Source: an uncultured Lachnospiraceae bacterium
GTDB lineage: Bacteria > Bacillota > Clostridia > Lachnospirales > Lachnospiraceae
DNA: 64,000 nt
Direction: 5' to 3'
Assembly (NCBI GenBank): GCA_946546945.1
Contig: CAMNOU010000013.1
Span: forward strand, 1-64,000
Program-made: the position numbers and the translations under genes
The notes under the pieces: model-generated
Told to the model about the DNA's origin: nothing
The model's input: the letters and a program-made list of their open reading frames with translations, nothing else
The model's database searches: none
Shown here: piece after piece, positions 4,183-44,021 of the stretch
How the letters are laid out: each line of letters begins with the position of its first letter
Numbering within the stretch: position 1 is the stretch's first letter

Positions 4183-5721
4183 TTAAGCCTGTAATGTTCT
4201 GCCTGTATTGGCCGCGATCTCGGCAGCATGTGTCTTCTTCCATGCCGGTTTGCCCGGAAGGATGAGATGAAGGATAATACCAAGCACAACAGATGCCACC
4301 ATCGTTGCGTACAGGTTCATGCTCCAGATTCCCGGAAGGGGCATCGGAATGAATGTCCAGATACAGTCAACAATATAGGTAATAATCACGGTAAGCCATG
4401 CGGCTGTCTTGCTGACCTTGAAGTTGTATCCGATGATGAATACGATGAAGACCGGCATACCGAAAGAGAATACCCACAAAAACAGGTTGAATACGAATTC
4501 ATGTGCCATGATGAGTGCTCCCGGAAGCAGTAAAGCAGCTGCGACAACGATGCAGGCTTTGTTGATGCGGAGTTTCTTTTTGGGATCTGCGTTCGGAACC
4601 GCACAGCCGATGATGATATCGTTCGCGATAACATTGGAGTTTGCAAGAACGACACCGCCGCCGGTGGAAAGGGTTGCGGAAAGCAGCGCTACCATCAGAA
4701 GACCGATTGCCGGAACCGGAAGACCTGCCTGAGCGATCAGCGGAACGGCCTCAAGTCCGTTCGGGGATACCTGAGAAGCAATTGCAGGGATGGACATAGC
4801 TGCAATACCGAGGAAGATCCAGGGCAGGGATGACATGATATTCAGGGAACAGCCGAGGAACACACCTTTGCGGCATGCATGCTCATCTTTGGCAGCAAAG
4901 AACGGCTGCATCATGGTCTGGGAAACAGCTCCGGCTGTTGTATGTAATACGATGACCGGAACAATGACGCCTGCCCATACAGGAACCATACCGAGCGTAC
5001 CGGTCTGAGTCAGGATATTGCTGTAACCAGCAGCGTCATATACCTGGCGAACGCCATCCCATCCGCCGATTGCCGACAGATAATGAACAGCGATGATGCC
5101 GATGGCTGCATAGGAGGCACCAAGCATAACGATCGCGTTAATACAGTTCAGCCATGCCATCTGCAGCATACCGCCGAAGAAAACATAGCATACGATCAGG
5201 ATGAAACCAAGGATGATTGCGCCATAGATGCTTAAGTTGATTCCGCTGGCCTGACAAAGTGTCCAGATCGCAGTACCGGTCGCAACCAGCTCAGAACAGC
5301 CGATACCGGTCCAGGTCATGGTCTGGAAGGCAGCGTGGAAATACCCCATTTTCTTGCCGAAAATTTTGGAAAGTGCGGTCGGTGCGGAAGGTGCGCCGAT
5401 TTTTTTGTAAAGCGGCCCGATCCAGAGCATGGCGATCGGAAGAAAGATTCCGCCTGCGCCGAGCGCCCACCAGCATGCGCCGGTACCGATACCGGTGAAG
5501 GATGCCCAGTCCGTAAAACCGCCTCCTGCGGCTTTTTCCCACAGGGACATGGTGTGACCGGAACCCAACGGAGCAAGGACGAATGAGAAGGTAACCATGA
5601 TCCATCCCATACCGCCGCCCGCATTTGCAAAGTCTTCTGCTGTTCTGACTTTGTTTTTTGAGTACAGACTGGCTACGATAATGAGTGCAGCAAAGTACAC
5701 AAGAGCGATAACGAGAGCCAT
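4183..5721 (-). CDS. SSS-family sodium:solute symporter
   Basis: A 512-residue polytopic membrane protein with about 13 hydrophobic segments and the layout of sodium/solute symporters. A first helix at the N terminus is followed by KVRTAEDFANAGGG, the family's usual loop after TM1. Start 5721 has an AAGGAGGAA site; a longer version beginning at 5814 would add a poor N terminus. It is divergent from a LysR gene and shares a promoter motif with the transhydroxylase operon, so import of a polyphenol-derived phenol is an inference from context. Proline, pantothenate or other organic substrates cannot be excluded. Confidence 0.85.
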   Translation of the reverse strand: MALVIALVYFAALIIVASLYSKNKVRTAEDFANAGGGMGWIMVTFSFVLAPLGSGHTMSLWEKAAGGGFTDWASFTGIGTGACWWALGAGGIFLPIAMLWIGPLYKKIGAPSAPTALSKIFGKKMGYFHAAFQTMTWTGIGCSELVATGTAIWTLCQASGINLSIYGAIILGFILIVCYVFFGGMLQMAWLNCINAIVMLGASYAAIGIIAVHYLSAIGGWDGVRQVYDAAGYSNILTQTGTLGMVPVWAGVIVPVIVLHTTAGAVSQTMMQPFFAAKDEHACRKGVFLGCSLNIMSSLPWIFLGIAAMSIPAIASQVSPNGLEAVPLIAQAGLPVPAIGLLMVALLSATLSTGGGVVLANSNVIANDIIIGCAVPNADPKKKLRINKACIVVAAALLLPGALIMAHEFVFNLFLWVFSFGMPVFIVFIIGYNFKVSKTAAWLTVIITYIVDCIWTFIPMPLPGIWSMNLYATMVASVVLGIILHLILPGKPAWKKTHAAEIAANTGRTLQA

Positions 5722-5767
5722 AAACTTATTCCTCCTTAAATAGTTTTCCTCTACTTCATGTTTTAGT

Positions 5768-5798
5768 AGTGTAATGTGTGTTGTTGGAATACAGTCAA
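5768..5798 (-). promoter_or_regulatory. Symporter promoter with 19-bp spacer and shared motif
   Basis: On the minus strand TTGACT (5798-5793) and TACACT (5773-5768) are 19 bases apart. The spacer contains TGTATTCCAACA, the reverse complement of the 12-mer in the transhydroxylase promoter at 7054-7065. The leader to the start codon is about 40 bases. Confidence 0.5.
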
Positions 5799-5818
5799 GA
5801 GACATAATGAACAAAATT

Positions 5819-6037: not shown

Positions 6038-6956
6038 ATGACTGATTTACAGATACGATGCTTTCTGGAAGTGGCGAAATGTTTGAGTTTTACAAAGGCA
6101 GCAAAGCATTTATTTATTTCTCAGTCCAATATCAGCCGACAGATTGCTTCGCTGGAGGAGGAGTGGGAGCTGCCGCTGTTCGACCGGAATACGAAGGGGG
6201 GTAAAACTGACCGCATCCGGGCAGATTCTCGCGGAGACGCTGGATGAAATGTCCGAGACCTGGAATATGGTCATGCTGCGGGAGAAAAATGCAGTCAAAA
6301 AATATTCAGGGACTTTAACGATCGGATCTCAGCCGCATATTAAAACAAACAGTTATATATCCCAGGTTCTTTCCGGGTTCCGTGAAGAGCATCCGGAGAT
6401 CCAGGTGATCAAGGAGCGCGTTTCCCAGAAGAAACTGGTAGAAGGGTTGCTGAACGATTATTACGATGCCATTCTCATAGCGGATCACGATGTGAAAATG
6501 GTCAGAAATGTGGAAAAGCTTACATTATTCTATTCCAGAGTCGGTATTGTTATTCACAAGAAGCATCCGCTCTTCTTTAAGAAAAATGTGACGCTGGCCG
6601 ATTTTAAGGACAGCTTGTTTCTCAGGTATAAGCCGATGGAGATGAATCCTGAGGATGACTACCTTATTAATATTTGTGCAGAGTTTGGATTTTATCCGAA
6701 AATCACAGCAGAGATCGAAGACTTCGAGGAGTTCCTGTTTCTTATTGAGACGGGAGAAGGAGTATCGCTGGTGTTTGAGGAGGCAGAGGTCATCTCAAAC
6801 ATGAATCTGCGGTTTATTCCGATCAATGAGGATGTTCCGCAGAAGTATCTTCCGATGCAGCTGACCAGAAAAGAGAAGAACCATAATCCGGTGCTGAACA
6901 GTTTCTTTGAATATGCGCGCAGGTATTCGAACCTGCATCAGAAAAAAGATATCTGA
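6038..6956 (+). pseudogene. LysR-type regulator, frameshifted in a G6 run
   Basis: The N-terminal part is a normal LysR helix-turn-helix (LQIRCFLEVAKCLSFTKAAKHLF, then SQSNISRQIASLEEE). At 6196-6201 a run of six G shifts the frame. Removing one G continues LFDRNTKG into VKLTASGQILAE and the substrate-binding domain, giving a normal 305-residue protein; 919 bases is exactly one more than a multiple of three. As written, translation stops at 6247. It may be a real lesion, a slippery tract or an assembly error. Divergent to the symporter and upstream of the transhydroxylase genes, it is the likely phenol-responsive regulator of both. Confidence 0.85.
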
Positions 6957-7227: not shown

Positions 7228-9828
7228 ATGCAAGGTGAAATTCGTTTGACTAACTCCAGCACCGGCGGTCCCGTGTTCGTATACGTAAAAGATGGAAAAA
7301 TCGTACGTATTACACCGATGGATTTTGATGAGACAGATCCGGAAGGCTGGACCATTAAGGCAAGAGGCAGAGAGTTTAAAGCTCCGAGATACACAACAAT
7401 TGCTCCTTTTACAGCAGGTCAGAAATCCATGATCTACTCCGATCGTCGGCTGCTTTATCCGATGAAGCGTGTAGATTTTGATCCCAATGGAGAGAGAAAT
7501 ATCCAGAACCGCGGTATTTCCGGATATGAGAGAATCAGCTGGGATGAAGCCACGGATATTGTTGTAAATGAAATCAACAGAATTAAGAGAGAGAGCGGTC
7601 CTGCATCTATTATGTCTACACCGTCATCTCACCATTTGTGGGGCAACGTAGGATATCGTCATTCCACTTACTTCCGTTTCATGAATCTCATGGGATTCAC
7701 ATACGCAGACCACAACCCGGATTCCTAGGAAGGATGGCACTGGGGCGGTATGCATATGTGGGGCTTCTCATGGAGACTTGGATGTCCGGAACAGAATGAT
7801 CTGTTAGAGGATGGTCTGAAATATGCGGAGATGATCGTATTCTGGTCATCCGACCCTGAGGTTAACTCCGGTATTTATGCTGCTTACGAGTCACACATCA
7901 GACGCCGCTGGCTTGATGAACTGGGCGTTAAGATGGTATTTATTGATCCTTTCTTCAACCATTCTGCAAATATGTGGGGAATGAAGTGGTTTTCACCGAA
8001 GGTTGGTACCGACCATGCAATCTCCTTCGCAATTGCTTACACATGGCTGACAGAAGGTACCTATGATAAAGAGTACGTAAAAGACCATGCTTACGGATTT
8101 GAAGAGTGGGCGGAGTATGTACTCGGCAACGGCGAGGATGGAATCCCGAAGACATGTGAGTGGGCCGAGAAAGAGTCCGGCGTTCCCGCATGTGAGATTC
8201 GCGCCCTTGCCCGTGAGTGGGCTAAGAAAAATACCTACCTTGCAGCCGGCGGTATGGGCGGCTGGGGCGGCGCCTGCCGTGCAACCCATGGTATTGAGTG
8301 GGCGCGCGGTATGATTGCTCTTGCAACTATGCAGGGAATGGGTAAACCCGGATCTAACATCTGGTCTACCACACAGGGTGTTCCGACTGACTATGAATTC
8401 TACTTCCCCGGATACGCAGAGGGCGGTATCTCCGGTGATTGCGCGAACTCCGCTGCTGGATTCAAGTTTGCATGGAGAATGTTCGACGGCAAGACCACAT
8501 TCCCGGCTCCGGTCAAGCTGAACTGGGAAGCAGGTCAGCATATCCCCCGTCTGAAGATTCCTGAGTGTATCATGAACGGCAAGTTCGAATGGTACGGCAA
8601 AGGATTCTGCGGAGCTTCCATCGAGGCCCAGATGCATCCGTACCAGTATCCGGCACCCGGATACGGAAAGATTAAGATGTACTGGAAGTATGGCGGACCG
8701 CACATCGGTACCATGACCGCTACGAACAGATACGCGAAGATGTATACATCTGAGAGCCTTGAGTTCGTTGTATCCCAGTCGATCTGGAACGAGGGAGAGG
8801 TAATGTTCGCTGATATTATCCTTCCGGCCTGCACCAACTATGAGAGATGGGATATCTCCGAGTTTGCAAACTGCTCCGGTTATATTCCGGATAACTTCCA
8901 GATGGCGAACAACCGTGTCATTTCCTTACAGGCAAAATGTATCGAGCCGCTTGGTGAATCCAAGTCCGATTACGATATCTATGCTCTTATGTCCAGGAAA
9001 CTCGGTATTTATGATATCTTTACCGAGGGCAAAGACGAACTTGCATGGGTTGAGCAGTATTACAATGCTACGGATTGTCCGAAGCTCATGAGCTGGGAAG
9101 ACTTCTTCAAGAAGGGTTACCTGGTAGTTCCGGACAACCCCAACAGAAAGAAAGCAGTTGCTCTTCGCTGGTTCGCGGAGAACCGTGAGCGCGATACACC
9201 TGACTGGGGTCCGGCGCCCAACCAGACTGTACACCTGAAGGGTCTGCAGACCACGACAGGTAAAGTTGAGTTTATTTCCACATCCATCAAGCGTTTTGAG
9301 GATCAGGGATTTGTTGACGAGTATCGTCCGGCGATGCATAAATATGTTCCCGCATGGGAAAGCTGGCATGCTGAAGTTGCAAAGAAATACCTGCTGGGCA
9401 TGTTATCCCCTCATCCCAGATTCTCCATGCATACCATGGGCGATGCGAAAGACTCCTTCATGCTTGATATCAAGGATCACCGTGTGCTCGTGGACGGCTG
9501 GTATTACTGGATCATCCGTATGAACACCGTTGATGCGGAAGCCCGTGGAATCAAAGATGGTGACTTAGTACGTGCTTACAACGACAGAGGTTCCGTAATC
9601 CTTTGTGCTCAGGTAGGTGAGCGTGTTCAGCCTGGTACTGTTCACTCTTATGAGTCCTGTGCAGAGTATGCACCGCTCGGAAAACCGGGATGCTCCGCAA
9701 ACCGCGGCGGTTGTGTAAATATTCTTACACCGGATCGCTACATGTCCAAATACGCGTGTGGTATGGCACCGAACAGTGCTCAGATTGAAGTAGAAAAATG
9801 GGATGGCGGCATTTACGAGATTTACTAA
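7228..9828 (+). pseudogene. athL: Pyrogallol transhydroxylase large subunit, in-frame TAG at codon 167
   Basis: The frame encodes a DMSO-reductase-family molybdopterin enzyme matching pyrogallol-phloroglucinol transhydroxylase in length (866 codons against about 875 in Pelobacter) and in the lack of an N-terminal Fe-S motif. It is interrupted once, by TAG at 7726-7728, giving pieces 7228-7728 and 7750-9828 in the same frame. The residue before the TAG is Ser166 in HNPDS, predicted to be the Mo-ligating serine (Ser175 in Pelobacter, from memory); H135 and D165 would match the active-site His and Asp. EGWHWGG follows directly, so the TAG probably replaces a TGG tryptophan codon. An AAGGAGG site precedes the start. 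The rest of the gene is intact. Confidence 0.85.
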
Positions 9829-9861: not shown

Positions 9862-10692
9862 ATGAAACAGTGGTATTTAGTAATAGATGTCAGATGGTGC
9901 CATGACTGTAACAACTGCTTTATGGCCTGTAAAGATGAGTTCGTGGGAAATGAGTGGCCCGGATACACAAATGAACAGCCGCGTCACGGACATCGTTGGA
10001 TGAATATCCACAGAAGAGAGCGCGGAAGATATGCCCGCAACGATTATGTTTATCTGCCGATGCCCTGCCAGCACTGCGAGAATGCTCCCTGCCAGAAAGC
10101 AGGCGGCGATGCAGTTACGCGCAGAGAAGATGGAATCGTTATGATTGATATGGAGAAGGCAAAAGGCAACAAAGCGCTTGTGGATTCCTGCCCTTACGGA
10201 GCAATTTACTGGAATGAAGAAGCAAATGTAGCCCAGAAATGTACGCTTTGTTCCCATCTTCTGGACGATCCCGACTGGATACCGGGCATCCCAAGATGTG
10301 CGCACAACTGCCCGACAAAGGCTATCAAAGCTCTTCATGTTGAGCCGGAGGAGATGAAAGTCATCGTAGAAAACGAAGGTCTGGAAGTATTCCATCCGGA
10401 GTATGGAACCAATCCGCATGTATTCTACAAGAACCTGTACAAGTTTACCAAAAACTTTGCATGGGGCGGCGTTCTGATCAATGGCGACTGCTTTGAAAAT
10501 GCGGATGTAGAGCTTAAGAAAGACGGCAAAGTGATCGCAACACAGAAGACAAACTTCTTTGGCGATTATAAGTTTGACGGTCTGGAAGACGGTGATTATG
10601 TAATCAGCATTGATGCAGATGGAAAGAAAAAAGATATTCCGATCACCATCGCAGGCCAGTTTCTCAATCTGGACTATGTAGAATTAGCATAA
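9862..10692 (+). CDS. athS: Pyrogallol transhydroxylase small (Fe-S) subunit
   Basis: A 276-residue iron-sulfur protein, close to the roughly 274 residues of the Pelobacter beta subunit. The N-terminal 200 residues carry ferredoxin-like cysteine groups (CHDCNNCFMAC, CQHCENAPC, CPYGAIYW, CTLCSHLL, CAHNCP), enough for three [4Fe-4S] clusters. Residues from about 205 form a small beta-sandwich of the Cna-B/carboxypeptidase-regulatory type (ENADVELKKDGKVIATQKT), a known trait of this subunit. It follows the large subunit by 33 bases with an AAAGGAG site and ends before a strong terminator. The subunit is intact, unlike its partner. Confidence 0.9.
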   Translation: MKQWYLVIDVRWCHDCNNCFMACKDEFVGNEWPGYTNEQPRHGHRWMNIHRRERGRYARNDYVYLPMPCQHCENAPCQKAGGDAVTRREDGIVMIDMEKAKGNKALVDSCPYGAIYWNEEANVAQKCTLCSHLLDDPDWIPGIPRCAHNCPTKAIKALHVEPEEMKVIVENEGLEVFHPEYGTNPHVFYKNLYKFTKNFAWGGVLINGDCFENADVELKKDGKVIATQKTNFFGDYKFDGLEDGDYVISIDADGKKKDIPITIAGQFLNLDYVELA

Positions 10693-18077: not shown

Positions 18078-18085
18078 GAGGCGTG

Positions 18086-34881: not shown

Positions 34882-36189
34882 ATGTATAAAGAAATTGCAA
34901 AACTGATCATGTATGGAGATATTGATCCGGACAGTATTATGTATCAGATGGGAGAGATTTTCCGCGACTTTGAAACCGGGACAGCAAGCGATGCGATTTT
35001 GACCAGACGGATCTATACGCAGATGAAAAGACTTCTTACGCTGGCGACCGATTACGGATTTGACAGGAATCTGTGGCATAACTATCTGGCTTATTTTCTG
35101 ATCACCAGCGAGAACCCCTTTTCGCTGACCTGCGAAAAGACGGGAGCCAGTGACGGGAGTGTGAATCATTTTGCAAAAAATGATTTTTCAGCGGTGAAAG
35201 CCCTGTTTGATTATGATTTTTCCGCGATTGAGAGAGCGCTTGGCATCGATTGTTTCTCTCATATATCCGATTATCGCGCGATTGAAAAAAAGGAGCTGAT
35301 GTACAACAAGAATGTCAGCGAAAAAGTACAGGCACTCAGTCTTTCACTGGAACAGGCGGAGGATGAGAACGGTTTCTTCGATGCCGTTACCGGTTTTTAT
35401 AAAGATTACGGAGTGGGCATGTTTGGCCTGAATAAAGCATTCCGCATTACGAATGACGCAGAGGGCGGTCTGGTTTTCCTGCCGATCAACAATATGGAAA
35501 AGGTGATGCTGGATGACCTGGTGGGCTATGAGATCCAGAAGAAGAAACTTGTAGACAATACACGAGCTTTTGTGGAAGGAAAGAAAGCGAATAATGTTCT
35601 GCTGTTTGGTGACAGCGGAACCGGGAAATCGACAAGCGTGAAAGCGATTGTCAATGAGTTTTATGCAGACGGGCTGCGGATGATCGAGATTTATAAACAT
35701 CAGTTCAAAGACCTGTCAAATGTGATTGCGGCTGTAAAAAACAGAAATTATAAATTTATTATTTATATGGATGACCTCTCATTTGAAGAGTTCGAGGTGG
35801 AGTATAAGTTCCTGAAAGCAGTGATTGAAGGCGGTGTGGAGACCAAGCCGGACAATATTCTGATTTACGCGACTTCCAACCGCAGGCATTTGATCAAAGA
35901 GACCTGGAGCGACCGGAATGATATGGAAACGGATAACGGCCTGCACAGATCGGATACGATGCAGGAAAAACTCTCGCTGGTAAACCGTTTCGGCGTGACC
36001 ATCAATTATTCAAAGCCGAGTCAGAAGGAGTATTTCGATATTGTCATACATCTGGCCAGACGGGCCGGCATTCCGATGGCGGATGATGAATTGAAAAGTG
36101 AAGCCAATAAATGGGAGCTTTCCCACGGAGGAATATCCGGGAGAACGGCGCAGCAGTTTGTTTATTATCTGCAGGGAATTTACGAATAA
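34882..36189 (+). CDS. DUF815 family ATPase
   Basis: A 435-residue AAA-type ATPase of the DUF815 family. The Walker A motif is [12 protein letters not shown] and Walker B is [12 protein letters not shown]; a sensor-like YATSNRRHL follows. The N-terminal 190 residues are helical and unassigned. GATAGGGGAA is the ribosome site; an upstream TTG at 34867 would add five residues. It follows the xpaC-telA terminator and is followed by a beta-CASP hydrolase 27 bases later. Function unknown. Confidence 0.82.
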
Positions 36190-36216
36190 GATTTTTAATA
36201 TTGGGGGATTTTTTAC

Positions 36217-37815
36217 ATGCGATTAGGTTTTATCGGAGCTGCACATGAGGTGACAGGAAGCTGTCATTTTCTGGAGGCAGGGGAAAAACGTATTCTGATT
36301 GACTGTGGGATGGAGCAGGGACCGGACATTTATGAGAACCAGGAAATTCCGGTCAATGCCGCAGCCATTGACTACGTGTTTGTAACACATGCGCACATCG
36401 ATCACAGCGGCCTTCTTCCGCTTTTGTATGCGCGCGGATTCCGCGGTAAGATTTATGCAACCAATGCGACTTCGCAATTGTGCGGCATTATGCTGAAGGA
36501 CAGTGCCCATATCCAGGAATTTGAGGCAGAGTGGAAAAACAGGAAGGGGCAGCGGGCCGGCAGGGAAGAAGTAGTTCCCATGTATACGCTGAGTGACGCG
36601 GAGGGAGTGCTCAATTATTTTGTGCCCTGCCCGTATGATAAGCAGATCAAAGTATGCGAAGAAGTGACCATTTGTTTCAGGGATGCCGGACATTTGCTGG
36701 GCTCCTCCTTTATTGAGGTGTGGGTGAATGAAAATGAGAAGCATTGCAAGCTGATTTTCTCGGGAGACCTTGGGAATGGAAATCATGCGCTGATCCGTGA
36801 TCCGGCGGTCCCGGATACATGTGATTATCTGATTATTGAGTCTACCTATGGGGACCGCTGCCATGAGACGCCGCCAGACTATGCGGTGGAACTTGCAAAG
36901 GTGCTTTCCGCAACATTTTCCAGAGGAGGCAATGTTGTGATTCCTGCTTTCTCTGTCGGGCGTACACAGGAAATGCTGTATCACATGCGCAGGATCAAAC
37001 AGGAAAAAATGCTTCCGGCCTTTGCTGATTTTGAAGTTTATGTGGACAGTCCGCTTGCTGTAGAAGCGACGAATATATTCAATGAAAATGTTGCAGAATG
37101 CTTCCGTGAGGAAGATCTGGAGATGATACGCAGCGGCGTCAATCCGATTCAGTTTCCGGGACTGAAAAAGTCGGTGACCAGCGAGGACTCAAAGGCCATC
37201 AACTTCAATCAGAAGCCGAAAGTCATCATTTCCGCATCCGGAATGTGTGAAGCCGGCCGGATCCGCCACCATCTGAAACACAATCTCTGGCGGGCGGAAT
37301 CGACCATTGTTTTCGTGGGATATCAGGTGCCGGGAACACTCGGACACAGTTTGTTAAACGGTGTCCGCGAGGTGAAGCTGTTCGGGGAAAACATACAGGT
37401 GGCTGCACAGATCCTGAATCTGCCGGGAATCAGCGGCCATGCGGACAGGGATCATCTGACTGCGTGGGTCAGCGCAATGAAGGAACTGCCAAAGAGAATA
37501 TTTGTCGTACACGGAGAGGACAGTGTCACTGACGAATTCGCGGCACATCTGACAGAAGTGACCGGTGCCGAGGCAACTGCGCCTTACAGCGGAGATGTCT
37601 ATGATCTGGCCGCCAATACATGTGTGGAGTTCGGGAGCAGGAAACGTGTAGAAAAGAAGGCAAAGGCACAGAAAGCGAAGACGGTATTTGACCGGCTTCT
37701 GGCTGCCGGGCAGAGATTGCTGGCTGTCATCCAGAAAAACAAAGAGGGTACCAACAAAGATCTTGCGAAATTCGCGGACCAGATTAATGTTCTCTGCGAT
37801 AAATGGGAACGCTGA
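36217..37815 (+). CDS. Beta-CASP metallo-beta-lactamase RNA-processing-type hydrolase
   Basis: A 532-residue zinc hydrolase. The metal-binding HAHIDHSG, the FSGDLGNG Asp, and the beta-CASP signatures SVGRTQEMLY, ISASGMCEAGRIRHHL and GISGHADRDHL are present. Proteins with this layout resemble the CPSF-73/RNase J group and may cleave RNA. The basic extension after residue 465 (RKRVEKKAKAQKAKT) could contact nucleic acid. GGGGGA precedes the start. The substrate is not known. Confidence 0.88.
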   Translation: MRLGFIGAAHEVTGSCHFLEAGEKRILIDCGMEQGPDIYENQEIPVNAAAIDYVFVTHAHIDHSGLLPLLYARGFRGKIYATNATSQLCGIMLKDSAHIQEFEAEWKNRKGQRAGREEVVPMYTLSDAEGVLNYFVPCPYDKQIKVCEEVTICFRDAGHLLGSSFIEVWVNENEKHCKLIFSGDLGNGNHALIRDPAVPDTCDYLIIESTYGDRCHETPPDYAVELAKVLSATFSRGGNVVIPAFSVGRTQEMLYHMRRIKQEKMLPAFADFEVYVDSPLAVEATNIFNENVAECFREEDLEMIRSGVNPIQFPGLKKSVTSEDSKAINFNQKPKVIISASGMCEAGRIRHHLKHNLWRAESTIVFVGYQVPGTLGHSLLNGVREVKLFGENIQVAAQILNLPGISGHADRDHLTAWVSAMKELPKRIFVVHGEDSVTDEFAAHLTEVTGAEATAPYSGDVYDLAANTCVEFGSRKRVEKKAKAQKAKTVFDRLLAAGQRLLAVIQKNKEGTNKDLAKFADQINVLCDKWER

Positions 37816-37858
37816 CAGGTATTTGAATACCGGAAAGAATAAAAATTCGTATGTACCC

Positions 37859-37887
37859 TTGCTTAACCTCTTTTTTTGCTTTATAAT
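37859..37887 (+). promoter_or_regulatory. mgsA promoter
   Basis: TTGCTT (37859-37864) and TATAAT (37882-37887), spacer 17. Confidence 0.65.
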
Positions 37888-37911
37888 AAAAATCTGAAGG
37901 GGGCAGTAAGA

Positions 37912-38307
37912 ATGAATATAGGATTGATCGCACATGAGTCGAAGAAAAAGCTTATGCAAAATTTTTGTATTGCATACCGGGGGATTTTGGGGAAAAACTC
38001 CCTTTATGCGACGGGCACAACGGGGCGATTGATCGAGGATGTTACGAATCTGTCGGTGCGCAAGTATTTGCCGGGACATCTGGGGGGAGTTCAGCAGCTG
38101 GGTGCAGACATTGAGAACAACCTGATTGATCTGGTTATTTTCCTGAGTGATCCGCAGTCAACCAATTCAAAGGATATCGGACTGGGCAACATATTGAGAC
38201 AGTGTGATATTCACAATGTGGCGATCGCCACGAATCTTGCCACTGCGGAACTGCTGATCCTTGCGCTGGACAGAGGCGACCTGGATTGGCGTGAGATGTA
38301 TAAATAG
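37912..38307 (+). CDS. mgsA: Methylglyoxal synthase
   Basis: A 131-residue enzyme converting dihydroxyacetone phosphate to methylglyoxal and phosphate, a bypass of lower glycolysis. Family motifs are IAHESKKK near the start, TGTTG for phosphate binding, HLGGVQQLGADI, and LSDPQST with the catalytic Asp region. GAAGGGGGC is the ribosome site. It has its own promoter and terminator, so it is probably monocistronic. Confidence 0.95.
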   Translation: MNIGLIAHESKKKLMQNFCIAYRGILGKNSLYATGTTGRLIEDVTNLSVRKYLPGHLGGVQQLGADIENNLIDLVIFLSDPQSTNSKDIGLGNILRQCDIHNVAIATNLATAELLILALDRGDLDWREMYK

Positions 38308-38315
38308 TCATTTTT

Positions 38316-38352
38316 TACAGTACAGATCCATAGGAACTGTACTGTATTTTTC
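38316..38352 (+). terminator. Terminator after mgsA
   Basis: ACAGTACAG pairs with CTGTACTGT, followed by a T-rich tract. Confidence 0.7.
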
Positions 38353-38534
38353 GTTTATTAAAAATCTGATTTTCCATATACAAAGAATTAATAGTTTTTT
38401 AATGATTTTATAAATTCTTTGTGCTAATATATTATCAGTCTGGCCTTGATGCATAAATGACCGGTATGAACAGAGTGGATTTCCGGTGTAATACGGATGA
38501 GAAAGTGACATATACTAGATTTAGGGATTTGTTT

Positions 38535-40010
38535 ATGGAGATACTGAAAGATATTTATAATCGTCTGGATGAGCGTATGAAAAGTGTTTTAATGTTTGCT
38601 GCCGGGACGGCCGCAATCATTGTGTTCTGTCTTTTTGCACGGGTGGCATGGCCGAATATCAGCAGAGAACCGGAGATGACACTACTTGGCGACGCGCAGA
38701 TTACGATCTCTGCCGGGACGGATTTTCAGGATGAGGGAGCAAAGGCATTTATCCGGAAAAAAGATGTCAGCGACCAGATCTATGTGACCGGCGAGGTGGA
38801 TACTGCCGTTCCGGGGACATATGATCTTGCGTATAATGTAGATGGCCGCTGGGAGACTTACTCGGTAGACCGGACAGTGACGGTTGTTGATACCGATGCT
38901 CCGCAGATTACGCTGAATCAGGATGAAACAGTGACGGTGGAAAAGATTGAGGATTATCAGGAACCCGGAGCAGTGGTGATTGACAACTGTGACGGAGATA
39001 TGTCTTCTGCCCTGGATATCCAGACAAAGCAGAGCAATGATTATACCTATGTTGTTACCTATACGGTGACGGACTCCTCAGGAAATACGGCGACAGCGCA
39101 AAGGCAGGTCATTCTGCAGGACAAAGTGGCTCCTGAAATAACGCTGATCGGAGAGGGAGCAATTACGATTCAGGAGCGGGAGAAGTTTGCAGACCCGGGT
39201 GCGCAGGCAGTGGATGACAGAGATGGAGATATCTCACAGAATGTCGTAGCTTCCGGCTTTGTCGATATCTATCGTCCCGGTTCGTATACCGTGACTTATA
39301 CCGTATCGGATGCGGGAGGCAATCAGGCATCTGTCACCCGCGATGTTGAGGTGCAGCGGGTGAATTATAATCCGGAGAACGCGATGTACCTGACCTTTGA
39401 TGACGGTCCGAGCGGGGATGTGACGCCGCAGATTCTGGACACACTTGCAGCAAATCATGTACAGGCAACTTTTTTCATCTGCAATTATGACGAGAGCAAG
39501 ATTCCGATTATCAAGAGGATGATCAATGAGGGACATACCATCGGTATTCATGGCTATTCCCATGAATATGCTGAGATTTATGCTTCGGCGGATGCGTTTA
39601 TGAATAATATTTATTCCCTGCGGGATAAACTGAAAAATGATACCGGTTATGAAGCGTTCTGCATACGGTTCCCCGGAGGAAGCAGCAATGCGGTCAGCAA
39701 GCACTATTGTGAAGGGGTTATGTCGCAGCTGGTTCAGAGGGTTACAGATGAAAATCTGATGTATGTGGACTGGAATGCTTCCTCGCATGATGCGGAGAGC
39801 GGATACCATTCTCCCCAGTCGATTCTGGAAAACGTTAAAAACGAGACAAAGCTGGGGCGGACGAATATTGTTCTGATGCATGATATTTCGTCCAAACAGA
39901 CGACGGCAGATGCCCTGCAGAGCATTATTGATTACGGAAAAAGCAGCGGATTTAACTTCTGCAGGATAGAGGAAAACACAGTGCCTGTGCATCAGACAGT
40001 GCAAAATTAA
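38535..40010 (+). CDS. Membrane-anchored polysaccharide deacetylase with Ig-like domains
   Basis: A 491-residue protein. A helix at residues 16-38 anchors it outside the cell. Three Ig-like domains follow (EMTLLGDAQITISAG, APQITLNQDETVTVE, APEITLIGEGAITIQ), each of the DUF5011/HYR type with a YTVTYTVSD end. The C-terminal NodB domain, from about residue 300, has LTFDDGPSG (catalytic Asp pair), HGYSH (metal His pair) and RFPGG. It likely removes acetyl groups from peptidoglycan or a surface glycan. TTAGGGA supports start 38535; an earlier ATG at 38457 is possible. Confidence 0.88.
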   Translation: MEILKDIYNRLDERMKSVLMFAAGTAAIIVFCLFARVAWPNISREPEMTLLGDAQITISAGTDFQDEGAKAFIRKKDVSDQIYVTGEVDTAVPGTYDLAYNVDGRWETYSVDRTVTVVDTDAPQITLNQDETVTVEKIEDYQEPGAVVIDNCDGDMSSALDIQTKQSNDYTYVVTYTVTDSSGNTATAQRQVILQDKVAPEITLIGEGAITIQEREKFADPGAQAVDDRDGDISQNVVASGFVDIYRPGSYTVTYTVSDAGGNQASVTRDVEVQRVNYNPENAMYLTFDDGPSGDVTPQILDTLAANHVQATFFICNYDESKIPIIKRMINEGHTIGIHGYSHEYAEIYASADAFMNNIYSLRDKLKNDTGYEAFCIRFPGGSSNAVSKHYCEGVMSQLVQRVTDENLMYVDWNASSHDAESGYHSPQSILENVKNETKLGRTNIVLMHDISSKQTTADALQSIIDYGKSSGFNFCRIEENTVPVHQTVQN

Positions 40011-40014
40011 TGAT

Positions 40015-41766
40015 ATGAAAAAACTACTGATCTATATGAAAGGATACCGGAAAGAAGCAGTGCTCGCCCCGCTCTTTAAGATGCTGGAGGCGACACTGGA
40101 GCTTTTCGTGCCTTTGATTGTTGCGGCAATCATTGATACCGGAATAGCAGGCAAAGATGCCTCCTATGTCATAAAGATGGTATTGGTTCTGGTCCTTCTG
40201 GGTGCAGTGGGGCTGGGCTTTTCTGTGACAGCGCAGTATTTTTCGGCAAAGGCGGCCACGGGTTTTGTGACCAGACTGCGTCATGTTCTTTTTTCCCATA
40301 TTCAGAAATTATCATATGAACAGCTGGACACGCAGGGGACTTCCACTTTGATCACCCGTATGACCAGTGATATGAATCAGGTGCAGTCAGGTGTTAATCT
40401 GACGCTGCGCCTGTTATTGCGTTCTCCCTTCGTGGTGATCGGAGCCATGGTGATGGCATTTACGGTGGATCCGAAAGCTGCGATTGTGTTCGTTGTGGAT
40501 GTTCCGGCACTGGCAGTGGTTGTTTTTGGCATCATGTTTGCCAGTATTCCGCTGTACCGGAAGGTGCAGAGCAGGATCGATGAAGTTCTGGGGATGACCA
40601 GAGAGAATCTGACCGGAGTCCGTGTGCTCCGGGCCTTTGGAAAAGAAGAGGATCAGATCAGAGAGTTTTCTGAAAAGAATGAAGAACTGACCGATACCCA
40701 GAAATTTGTGGGAAAGATCACGGCTCTTCTGAACCCTGTCACTTATGTGATCGTCAATGCTGCGATTATTGTTCTGATCTGGGTCGGCGCAATTCGCGTT
40801 CATACAGGGATATTGACGCAGGGAGCAGTCGTGGCTCTTTACAATTATATGGCGCAGATCCTTACGGAGCTGATCAAGCTTGCCAACCTGATCATTAATA
40901 TTACAAAGGCCGTCGCCTGCGGGAACCGTATTCAGTCTGTTCTGGAGGAGGAGCCCTCTGTGACGGACGGCATGGCAGAAGAACAGGAACACAGTCCGGG
41001 TACGCCGGCGGTTGAATTCAAAGATACCGGGCTTCGCTATCCGATGGCTTCCGAAGAAGCACTGTCCCATATTTCCTTTTTTGCAATGCCCGGGCAGATG
41101 ATTGGTGTGATTGGCGGAACAGGATCCGGGAAAACTTCCCTGGTGAATCTGATCCCGCGTTTTTATGACTGTTCCGGAGGGCAGGTGCTGGTCAACGGAA
41201 CAGATGTGAAAGACTATAAAATGGATGACCTGCGGTCGCGGATCGGTGTGGTGCCGCAAAAAGCAGTTCTGTTCGCGGGTACGATCCGTGAAAATATGCA
41301 ATGGGGAAAACCCGAAGCTACAGATGAGGAGATCTTTCGCGCTCTGGAAATTGCGCAGGCGCTGGATATTGTCCGGGGAAGGGAAGCCGGACTCGATACG
41401 AAGGTAGAACAGGGGGGACGGAACTTTTCCGGAGGACAGAGACAGCGGCTTACCATTGCGAGAGCACTGGTGCGCCAGCCGGATATTCTGATATTGGATG
41501 ACAGCTCTTCTGCACTTGATTTTGCGACAGATGCAGCGCTCCGAAACGCAATCCGGACGATGGATCCGAGACCGGTCCTTTTTGTTGTATCGCAAAGAAC
41601 CAATTCCATACAACATGCGGATAAGATCATTGTTCTGGAAGACGGACAGGCAGCAGGGATCGGAACACACGAGGAACTGCTGAGAACCTGTGCTGTCTAT
41701 CAGGAAATTTACCAGTCCCAGTTCGGCGCACGGACAGAAGGGGGGCACGTACATGAAGAAGACTAA
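40015..41766 (+). CDS. ABC exporter subunit 1
   Basis: A 583-residue half-transporter: six membrane helices (about 15-300) and a C-terminal ATPase. Walker A is GGTGSGKTSL, the signature is NFSGGQRQRLTIARAL, and Walker B is ILILDDSSSALD, where the usual catalytic Glu after the Asp pair is Asp. This marks a degenerate site typical of one partner in heterodimeric exporters. Its last 14 bases overlap the second subunit. It starts four bases after the deacetylase stop without an obvious ribosome site, suggesting coupling. Confidence 0.93.
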   Translation: MKKLLIYMKGYRKEAVLAPLFKMLEATLELFVPLIVAAIIDTGIAGKDASYVIKMVLVLVLLGAVGLGFSVTAQYFSAKAATGFVTRLRHVLFSHIQKLSYEQLDTQGTSTLITRMTSDMNQVQSGVNLTLRLLLRSPFVVIGAMVMAFTVDPKAAIVFVVDVPALAVVVFGIMFASIPLYRKVQSRIDEVLGMTRENLTGVRVLRAFGKEEDQIREFSEKNEELTDTQKFVGKITALLNPVTYVIVNAAIIVLIWVGAIRVHTGILTQGAVVALYNYMAQILTELIKLANLIINITKAVACGNRIQSVLEEEPSVTDGMAEEQEHSPGTPAVEFKDTGLRYPMASEEALSHISFFAMPGQMIGVIGGTGSGKTSLVNLIPRFYDCSGGQVLVNGTDVKDYKMDDLRSRIGVVPQKAVLFAGTIRENMQWGKPEATDEEIFRALEIAQALDIVRGREAGLDTKVEQGGRNFSGGQRQRLTIARALVRQPDILILDDSSSALDFATDAALRNAIRTMDPRPVLFVVSQRTNSIQHADKIIVLEDGQAAGIGTHEELLRTCAVYQEIYQSQFGARTEGGHVHEED

Positions 41767-43489
41767 AGAAAGACGCGTTATCCTGAAAAAAGTTCTTCAT
41801 TATATCAGTGCTTACAGAATTTGGATCTTCTTTTCCATTCTGCTCGCTGTGATCACGGTTGTGCTTACGTTGTATATTCCGATTCTGGTGGGACGGGCAA
41901 TTGACTATATTGTCGCTGAGGGATTCGTGGATTTTGAAAACATTATAAAGATTCTGATCAGAATTGGCATTGCCGCTGCGGCAACCGCAATCTTGCAGTG
42001 GGTCATGAATACCATCAATAATAAGGTGACCTATCAGGTAGTCAGAGATGTGCGGAACCAGGCTTTTGAAAAGATTCAGAAGCTGCCGCTGAAATATCTC
42101 GACGGACATACCGGCGGAGAGATTGTCAGCCGGGTGATCGTGGATGCAGATCAGTTTGCGGACGGATTGCTGATGGGGTTCTCGCAGCTGTTTATCGGAA
42201 TCGTAACGATCGCGGGAACGCTGTTTTTTATGCTGACGATCAAACCGGCCATTACGGTTGTCGTTGTTGTGCTGACGCCGGTTTCACTTCTGGTGGCGCG
42301 CTTTATTGCGAAAAGGACGTTCGACATGTTTGTCCTGCAGTCAAAGACACGTGCGAAGCAGACGGCCCTGATTGATGAGATCGTCGGAAATCAGAAAGTT
42401 GTACAGGCGTTTTCACATGAGGATGAAGCGATAAAAAACTTTGATGAGATCAATGAGGAGCTCGGGAAATGCTCTCTGCGCGCTACGTTTTTTTCATCCC
42501 TGACCAATCCGGGTACGCGTTTTGTGAACAGTCTTGTTTATGCAGCGGTTGCTCTGAGCGGCGCACTGACGGTGATTGCCGGCGGGATGACCGTCGGCGC
42601 GTTGGTCAGCTTTCTGAGTTATGCAAACCAGTACACAAAGCCTTTTAATGAAATCTCCGGTGTGATTACGGAACTGCAGAATGCGCTTGCCTGTGCCGGG
42701 AGGATTTTTGAACTGATCGAAGAAACGCCGGAAAGGGAGGATGCCCCGGATGCGGTGACGTTACAGCATCCCAGAGGAGCTGTTCAGATTGAACATGTTG
42801 ATTTTTCCTATGAACCGTCACAGCGTCTGATCGAAGATCTGAACCTGGATGTAAGACCGGGGCAGAGGATTGCGATTGTGGGACCTACCGGATGCGGAAA
42901 AACAACGTTTATTAACCTCCTGATGCGGTTTTATGATGTAAAAGGCGGCACGATCTGCGTGGATGGAAAGGAAATCCGGGAAATCACCCGGAAGAGTCTG
43001 CGGGGATCCTATGGAATGGTGCTGCAGGACACCTGGCTGAAGTCCGGGACCATCCGGGAAAATATCTGTATGGGGCGTCCGGACGCTTCGGAGGAGGAAG
43101 TGATTGCTGTTGCAAAGGCGTGCCATGCCCATGGATTTATCCGGAGGCTTCCGGATGGGTATGATACAGTGATCGGAGAAGACGGGGGAAGTCTTTCCCA
43201 GGGGCAGAAACAGCTGATCTCCATTGCAAGGGTCATGCTGAGCGAGCCGTCCATGCTGATTCTGGATGAAGCTACTTCTTCTATCGACACAAGGACAGAA
43301 ATGCATATCCAGAATGCATTTGCGAAATTGATGGAAGGCAGGACCAGTTTTATCGTTGCCCACCGGCTTTTTACAATCCAGAATGCAGACCGGATCCTTG
43401 TGATGAAGGACGGCAGGATCATCGAGCAGGGAACGCACCGGGAGCTGATGGAAAAACAGGGCTTTTATTATCATCTTTATCAGGTATGA
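41753..43489 (+). CDS. ABC exporter subunit 2
   Basis: A 578-residue half-transporter partner of the preceding gene. Walker A is GPTGCGKTTF, Walker B is MLILDEATSSID with the full catalytic Glu, and the signature loop is SLSQGQKQL, which departs from LSGGQ. The pair therefore has the asymmetric sites of heterodimeric exporters such as BmrCD or TM287/288. GAAGGGGGGC precedes the start. The substrate may be a drug, lipid or peptide; sequence alone does not decide. Confidence 0.93.
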   Translation: MKKTKERRVILKKVLHYISAYRIWIFFSILLAVITVVLTLYIPILVGRAIDYIVAEGFVDFENIIKILIRIGIAAAATAILQWVMNTINNKVTYQVVRDVRNQAFEKIQKLPLKYLDGHTGGEIVSRVIVDADQFADGLLMGFSQLFIGIVTIAGTLFFMLTIKPAITVVVVVLTPVSLLVARFIAKRTFDMFVLQSKTRAKQTALIDEIVGNQKVVQAFSHEDEAIKNFDEINEELGKCSLRATFFSSLTNPGTRFVNSLVYAAVALSGALTVIAGGMTVGALVSFLSYANQYTKPFNEISGVITELQNALACAGRIFELIEETPEREDAPDAVTLQHPRGAVQIEHVDFSYEPSQRLIEDLNLDVRPGQRIAIVGPTGCGKTTFINLLMRFYDVKGGTICVDGKEIREITRKSLRGSYGMVLQDTWLKSGTIRENICMGRPDASEEEVIAVAKACHAHGFIRRLPDGYDTVIGEDGGSLSQGQKQLISIARVMLSEPSMLILDEATSSIDTRTEMHIQNAFAKLMEGRTSFIVAHRLFTIQNADRILVMKDGRIIEQGTHRELMEKQGFYYHLYQV

Positions 43490-43537
43490 AAAAAGGGTTT
43501 GTAAAGTTACAAAAAAAGCTTTACAAACCCTTTTTTT
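43488..43537. terminator. Terminator after the ABC exporter
   Basis: AAAGGGTTTGTAAAG pairs with CTTTACAAACCCTTT, with A and T tracts on either side. Confidence 0.85.
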
Positions 43538-43547
43538 GTGTTATAAT
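43520..43547 (+). promoter_or_regulatory. Promoter of the Fur/PerR gene
   Basis: TTTACA (43520-43525) and TATAAT (43542-43547), spacer 16. The -35 lies inside the preceding terminator stem. Confidence 0.5.
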
Positions 43548-43560
43548 AAAAATAACTTAA

Positions 43561-43575
43561 TGATAATGATTATTG
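43561..43575 (+). promoter_or_regulatory. PerR/Fur box
   Basis: TGATAATGATTATTG matches the 7-1-7 Fur/PerR box pattern, with a perfect ATAAT-G-ATTAT core. It lies 14 bases after the -10 and 18 bases before the regulator start, a position for autorepression. Confidence 0.6.
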
Positions 43576-43592
43576 TTAGTGAGTGATAACTT

Positions 43593-44021
43593 ATGACAGA
43601 GGGAGCTATCCGCAGATATAGTAAAAAGCGGCAGGCAATTCTTGATTGTCTGAAAAAAACCGATACGCATCCGACAGCGGAGTGGATTTATGAACAGCTG
43701 CGGGAGCAGTATCCGGATCTGAGTCTGGCAACCGTCTACCGCAACCTGAACCAGCTGAAGGAAGCCGGGATGGTCCGCTCGATGGGAGTTGTGAACGATC
43801 ACGAGCGTTTTGACGGGAAGACAGGGCCTCATTCCCATGTGGTCTGTGCCGGGTGCGGGGCGATCATTGATCTGGATGATATCCGGATCGATGAGGATAT
43901 GATCGCGCAGGCAGAGACGGCGACTGGATACAGTATCTCGGAGGTATCCCTGCACTTTATCGGGATGTGCCGTGACTGCCGGGCGGCCGGCGCAGGGGAT
44001 CCGGTACGGAAAGATGACTGA
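43593..44021 (+). CDS. perR: Fur-family regulator, probably PerR
   Basis: A 142-residue Fur-family repressor. The N-terminal winged helix ends TVYRNLNQLKEAGMVR. The C-terminal half has HSHVVCAGCG and the second CRDC pair for the structural zinc, with the regulatory site in HERFDGKTGPHSH. PerR, which senses peroxide, is favoured over Fur because every following gene is an oxygen or peroxide detoxification gene. Sequence alone cannot fix the sensing residue. A PerR/Fur-like box overlaps its leader. Confidence 0.82.
   Translation: MTEGAIRRYSKKRQAILDCLKKTDTHPTAEWIYEQLREQYPDLSLATVYRNLNQLKEAGMVRSMGVVNDHERFDGKTGPHSHVVCAGCGAIIDLDDIRIDEDMIAQAETATGYSISEVSLHFIGMCRDCRAAGAGDPVRKDD

Follow-up and report, generated by a model that had tools for sequence, protein, structure and literature searches.

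The transhydroxylase that turns pyrogallol into phloroglucinol acts on a product of plant tannin breakdown. The solved enzyme, PDB 4v4c (Pyrogallol hydroxytransferase large subunit), presumably comes from Pelobacter acidigallici and has a Mo-ligand serine whose number we take to be Ser175. A young bacterial pseudogene, the other described system that matters here, is a gene that would be conserved throughout but for one nonsense or frameshift change. According to the accessible part of PMC10100899, Mo in the pyrogallol-phloroglucinol transhydroxylase is held through a Ser, and the accessible parts of PMC7028382 and PMC10420851 contain nothing on the Mo ligand of this enzyme. In the window, by which we mean the whole stretch of DNA that was analysed (64,000 bases), a gene for the large subunit of such an enzyme is interrupted by one stop codon, and the features of this locus are as follows.

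7228..9828, + strand: athL-like gene for the large subunit of pyrogallol-phloroglucinol transhydroxylase (AthL), with one internal stop; from phmmer to 4v4c and 76-95% identity to orthologues
7726..7728, + strand: in-frame TAG at codon 167, right behind the position of the Mo-ligand serine; from the sequence and its translation
7750..9828, + strand: open frame after the stop, 692 codons, with its first ATG at 7750; from ORF reading and phmmer
9862..10692, + strand: open small-subunit gene, AthS-like, 4Fe-4S dicluster, 276 aa; from Pfam Fer4_11

When the frame from 7228 to 9828 was translated it gave 866 codons and a terminal TAA, with a sole internal stop at codon 167, the TAG at 7726-7728 that a preliminary description of this DNA had reported. 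That description had also named the gene as the transhydroxylase large subunit, and phmmer bore this out on both sides of the stop: the 166 residues upstream of the TAG aligned to residues 4-175 of 4v4c with an E-value of 2.1e-79 (268.6 bits over 163 aa), and the 692 aa from the ATG at 7750 aligned to residues 184-875 with 1321.9 bits. In the alignment Ser166 pairs with Ser175, which agrees with the earlier values for the offset (nine) and for the lengths (866 and 875 residues), and the two further pairs that had been proposed, His135/His144 and Asp165/Asp174, lie in the same gap-free block as Ser166. Thus, the window gene resembles the 4v4c transhydroxylase in a near-full-length alignment, in a serine that by this alignment is the predicted Mo ligand, and in the adjoining gene for an Fe-S small subunit (9862-10692, Fer4_11), but its reading frame, unlike that of the solved enzyme, is broken by the TAG at codon 167. 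Translation would stop after the Mo-ligand serine and leave a fragment of 166 residues, and because about four fifths of the protein would be missing from this fragment no working transhydroxylase would be expected from it.

The earlier description placed weight on the stop being at this exact spot, and here we differ from it, as codon 167 is one of many Trp codons in athL (there are 33 besides it) and a neighbouring LysR gene has an unrelated lesion. The position of the TAG as a mark of a functional site was rejected, since 53 of the 866 codons of athL are one transition from a stop. A stop followed by a long open frame could also mean a split gene, in which re-initiation at the ATG at 7750 gives two chains that jointly form the enzyme. 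The ATG is in frame, lies 21 bases past the stop and has a purine-rich stretch ahead of it; however, the ATG and much the same stretch are found in 12 relatives with an unbroken gene, so nothing has been acquired for re-initiation, and the seven residues from the stop to the ATG, which would be missing from both chains, belong to a conserved block adjoining the Mo ligand. We consider a split gene very improbable.

When contigs were scanned for loci orthologous to athL, by peptide patterns that detect close relatives, 23 loci were obtained, one of which (L025) is partial while 22 span codon 167. In 22 of the 22 loci fetched in this way codon 167 is TGG, the codon that the preliminary description had supposed to be the original one, and it is a stop in 0 of 22. 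The 22 gene sequences all differ from one another. Among the 19 other genomes searched in the genus, six have a full-length orthologue; these six sequences coincide with those of six loci in the set of 22. In G018 a partial orthologue covers residues 308-866. Codon 167 is also TGG in all 42 aligned rows of at least 41% identity, the window gene excluded; some of these rows are duplicates or paralogues, one being the second copy that this genome itself has on contig C5. In seven rows from remote molybdoenzymes (20-25% identity) the place is taken by other sense codons or by a gap. Compared with the AthL orthologue of Eubacterium oxidoreducens DSM 3217 (L013), the identity is 89% over residues 1-866, but the gene of that strain is uninterrupted with TGG at codon 167, and its LysR gene is on the other strand and farther away.

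For dN/dS, athL was compared with 12 of the 22 loci, a set without L017, whose length is the same, and without the more distant loci. Against these 12, the DNA identity of athL was 82-87% and dN/dS was 0.027-0.066, which is purifying selection, and the ratio was low on either side of the TAG, the first part giving no value for L006, L007 and L008. At seven positions the window departs from what all 12 relatives share, namely in six amino-acid changes and the stop. The same count of private changes was 7 in L005, 7 in L006, 17 in L009 and 0-3 in the other nine, for some of which the low count reflects near kin within the set. Because dN/dS is low before and after the stop and the relatives have TGG, the change to TAG appears to be private and very recent, and athL has been under selection until very recently, or is so still. 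The gene is therefore like young bacterial pseudogenes in having a private lesion in an otherwise conserved and recently selected sequence, with low dN/dS and intact relatives, and differs from them in that its lesion is known from one assembly alone.

The LysR lesion, directly upstream of athL, had been missed in the preliminary description. The features on this side of athL are as follows.

6038..6956, + strand: LysR-type regulator gene split between two frames, the HTH_1 part at 6038-6247 and the LysR_substrate part at 6195-6956; from Pfam HTH_1 and LysR_substrate
6196..6201, + strand: G run at the LysR frameshift; from the sequence and comparison with relatives
4183..5814, - strand: open sodium:solute symporter gene, divergent from LysR; from Pfam SSF, with adjacency as its only link to athL

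Both LysR parts are in one frame without stops in 13 of the 13 relative loci that have both; L012, which has only 680 bases upstream, has the second part alone, and for 8 of the 22 loci the DNA searched gave no match. Of the 13 loci with both parts, 11 have the LysR gene directly before athL and in the same orientation; L009 and L013 have it on the opposite strand, at a greater distance. LysR synonymous sites were saturated in most comparisons. From its adjacency we infer that LysR may be the regulator of athL. In G runs replication slippage and sequencing error are both common.

The reading that we prefer, with a probability of roughly 0.6, is that a nonsense substitution, private and very recent, has hit an otherwise intact athL in a strain in which the LysR gene next to it is frameshifted too, and that the pyrogallol step has probably been lost. 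Its main rival is that one or both lesions are an error of the consensus or the assembly, or the bases of a minority strain, athL being intact in the living population and the LysR gene perhaps so too. The very low dN/dS gives no sign of relaxed selection, just as would be expected of an error in a living gene, and the two lesions fall within about 1.5 kb of each other, 6-8 kb into contig C13, with the LysR lesion sitting in the G run. The assembly itself, in 65 contigs, is 92% complete and 4% contaminated, and the genome is probably a metagenome bin. What speaks against error is that the remaining gene models of the window appear whole. Of its 62 ORF models, 49 were submitted to Pfam (46 had a family hit, those at 18083, 52063 and 59762 being the ones without), 11 others were assessed by the ORFs of relatives, and two are the athL pieces; the ORF matches of relatives cover 26,761 of the 64,000 window bases, and positions 35901-44000, left out of the DNA comparison, were assessed through Pfam alone. 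Among these 62 models LysR is the only one with domains or a relative's ORF divided over frames, and, where ORFs of relatives matched, athL was judged to be the only window gene interrupted by a stop. Stop-bearing rows at, for example, 26223, 56645, 59974 and 63358 are places where the stop-to-stop ORF of the relative is antisense to a window gene or extends upstream of the start of that gene, and from these places they were judged not to be lesions.

Genome-wide, ABC_tran had 86 matches, among which a pair on contig C19 lies in different frames and a gene on contig C2 is apparently cut short, so that the assembly does not look error-ridden by this rough proxy, which is not an error rate. Because the other window models look whole and few ABC_tran matches look broken, lesions in two adjacent genes stand out. 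They fit the decay of one module, and a local error is also possible. An assembly that is error-prone throughout was judged unlikely from the window models and the ABC_tran matches. We give error at the locus itself a substantial minority chance; recent inactivation and error are both compatible with the relatives and the genome searches, the evidence for the lesions being one assembly. As to the two ABC-transporter ATPase genes, the one at G000:C19:35209-35632, split over frames with a TAA, and the one at G000:C2:11028-11249, an open frame of 122 codons without the middle of the domain, both appear to be broken.

The preliminary description had left inactivation, error and recoding side by side. 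The first two stand, and the third, in which UAG at codon 167 would be read as an amino acid by way of pyrrolysine or a suppressor tRNA, is opposed by the relatives and by searches of the genome. Recoding would agree with there being one stop only, with an open downstream frame and with strong conservation. That it would have to be local, as had been argued earlier, holds, because TAG is an ordinary stop here that terminates 8 of the 62 window ORF models, the athL piece included, and thus closes 7 others. The release factor gene prfA (RF1) is present above the curated cut-off, with 365 codons in an open frame, and its translation contains GGQ and P-E-T, which we take to be the names of the RF1 motifs. 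The search for pylS or a suppressor tRNA that had been proposed gave no match of the PylSn model for pyrrolysyl-tRNA synthetase in the window's genome (G000, 92% complete), and the best scores of the PylS C-terminal model there were 22-25 bits against a cut-off of 178; the latter search also matched 13 of 14 control genomes, one of them above the cut-off. No CUA anticodon was present among 34 tRNA places, 32 read by ARAGORN and 2 partial ones by eye (GCA and GTG), and all 34 have other anticodons. This tRNA list is incomplete, with Phe, Tyr, Asp, Asn and Ile missing, so a suppressor tRNA could be among the missing ones, and a PylSn search of 20 genus genomes did give one match of 119 bits, at G010:C71:27027-27284, in a genome that is 7% contaminated and has no AthL match. 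An in-frame TAG at codon 167 is not conserved either, being present in 0 of the 22 orthologous loci. With the PylS models for both termini, RF1, the tRNA anticodons and the orthologues all tested, the results on RF1, PylS, tRNA and TAG usage, together with TGG in all fetched orthologues, leave little room for recoding, and we regard it as the least probable of the readings. That a UAG beside the Mo ligand is decoded locally as an amino acid, by a suppressor tRNA or other machinery encoded in the missing part of the assembly, has next to no chance of being right. The athL lesion, then, adds nothing new on the genetic code, being an ordinary lesion or a consensus error.

If the inactivation is real, it would be a loss at the strain level of the entry step for gallate and pyrogallol with phloroglucinol degradation kept: the strain would probably be without the conversion of pyrogallol to phloroglucinol and would retain the genes for opening the phloroglucinol ring. 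The relatives of this lineage include Eubacterium oxidoreducens and many uncultured Lachnospiraceae, and the athL lesion is a caution that the presence of a gene alone does not prove tannin degradation. A second AthL-like gene in this genome, at G000:C5:70264-72813 (L133:4256-7378, - strand), is 53-54% identical and has an open frame of 1041 codons, of which the first ~190 precede the AthL-like part; it adjoins an Fe-S subunit gene of its own, and the equivalent of codon 167 in it is TGG. It may partly cover the loss of athL. The search did not find in G000, at 92% completeness, the AthL copy that relatives have at 63-64% identity.

As regards the remaining pathway, contig C13 ends at 89317 within a cyclase gene. 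Its end (L129) carries an SDR gene, a 3HCDH gene and the first part of the cyclase gene, all open, and the end of contig C40 (L130) carries the remainder of the cyclase gene and a BKACE gene, open as well. The SDR, 3HCDH, cyclase and BKACE genes are 75-99% identical to their counterparts in G019 or G007, and their families and order suggest that they are phloroglucinol genes; a phloroglucinol cluster of similar make-up is named in the accessible part of PMC10470551. A phloroglucinol-type cluster is thus divided over the ends of C13 and C40, which are apparently neighbours.
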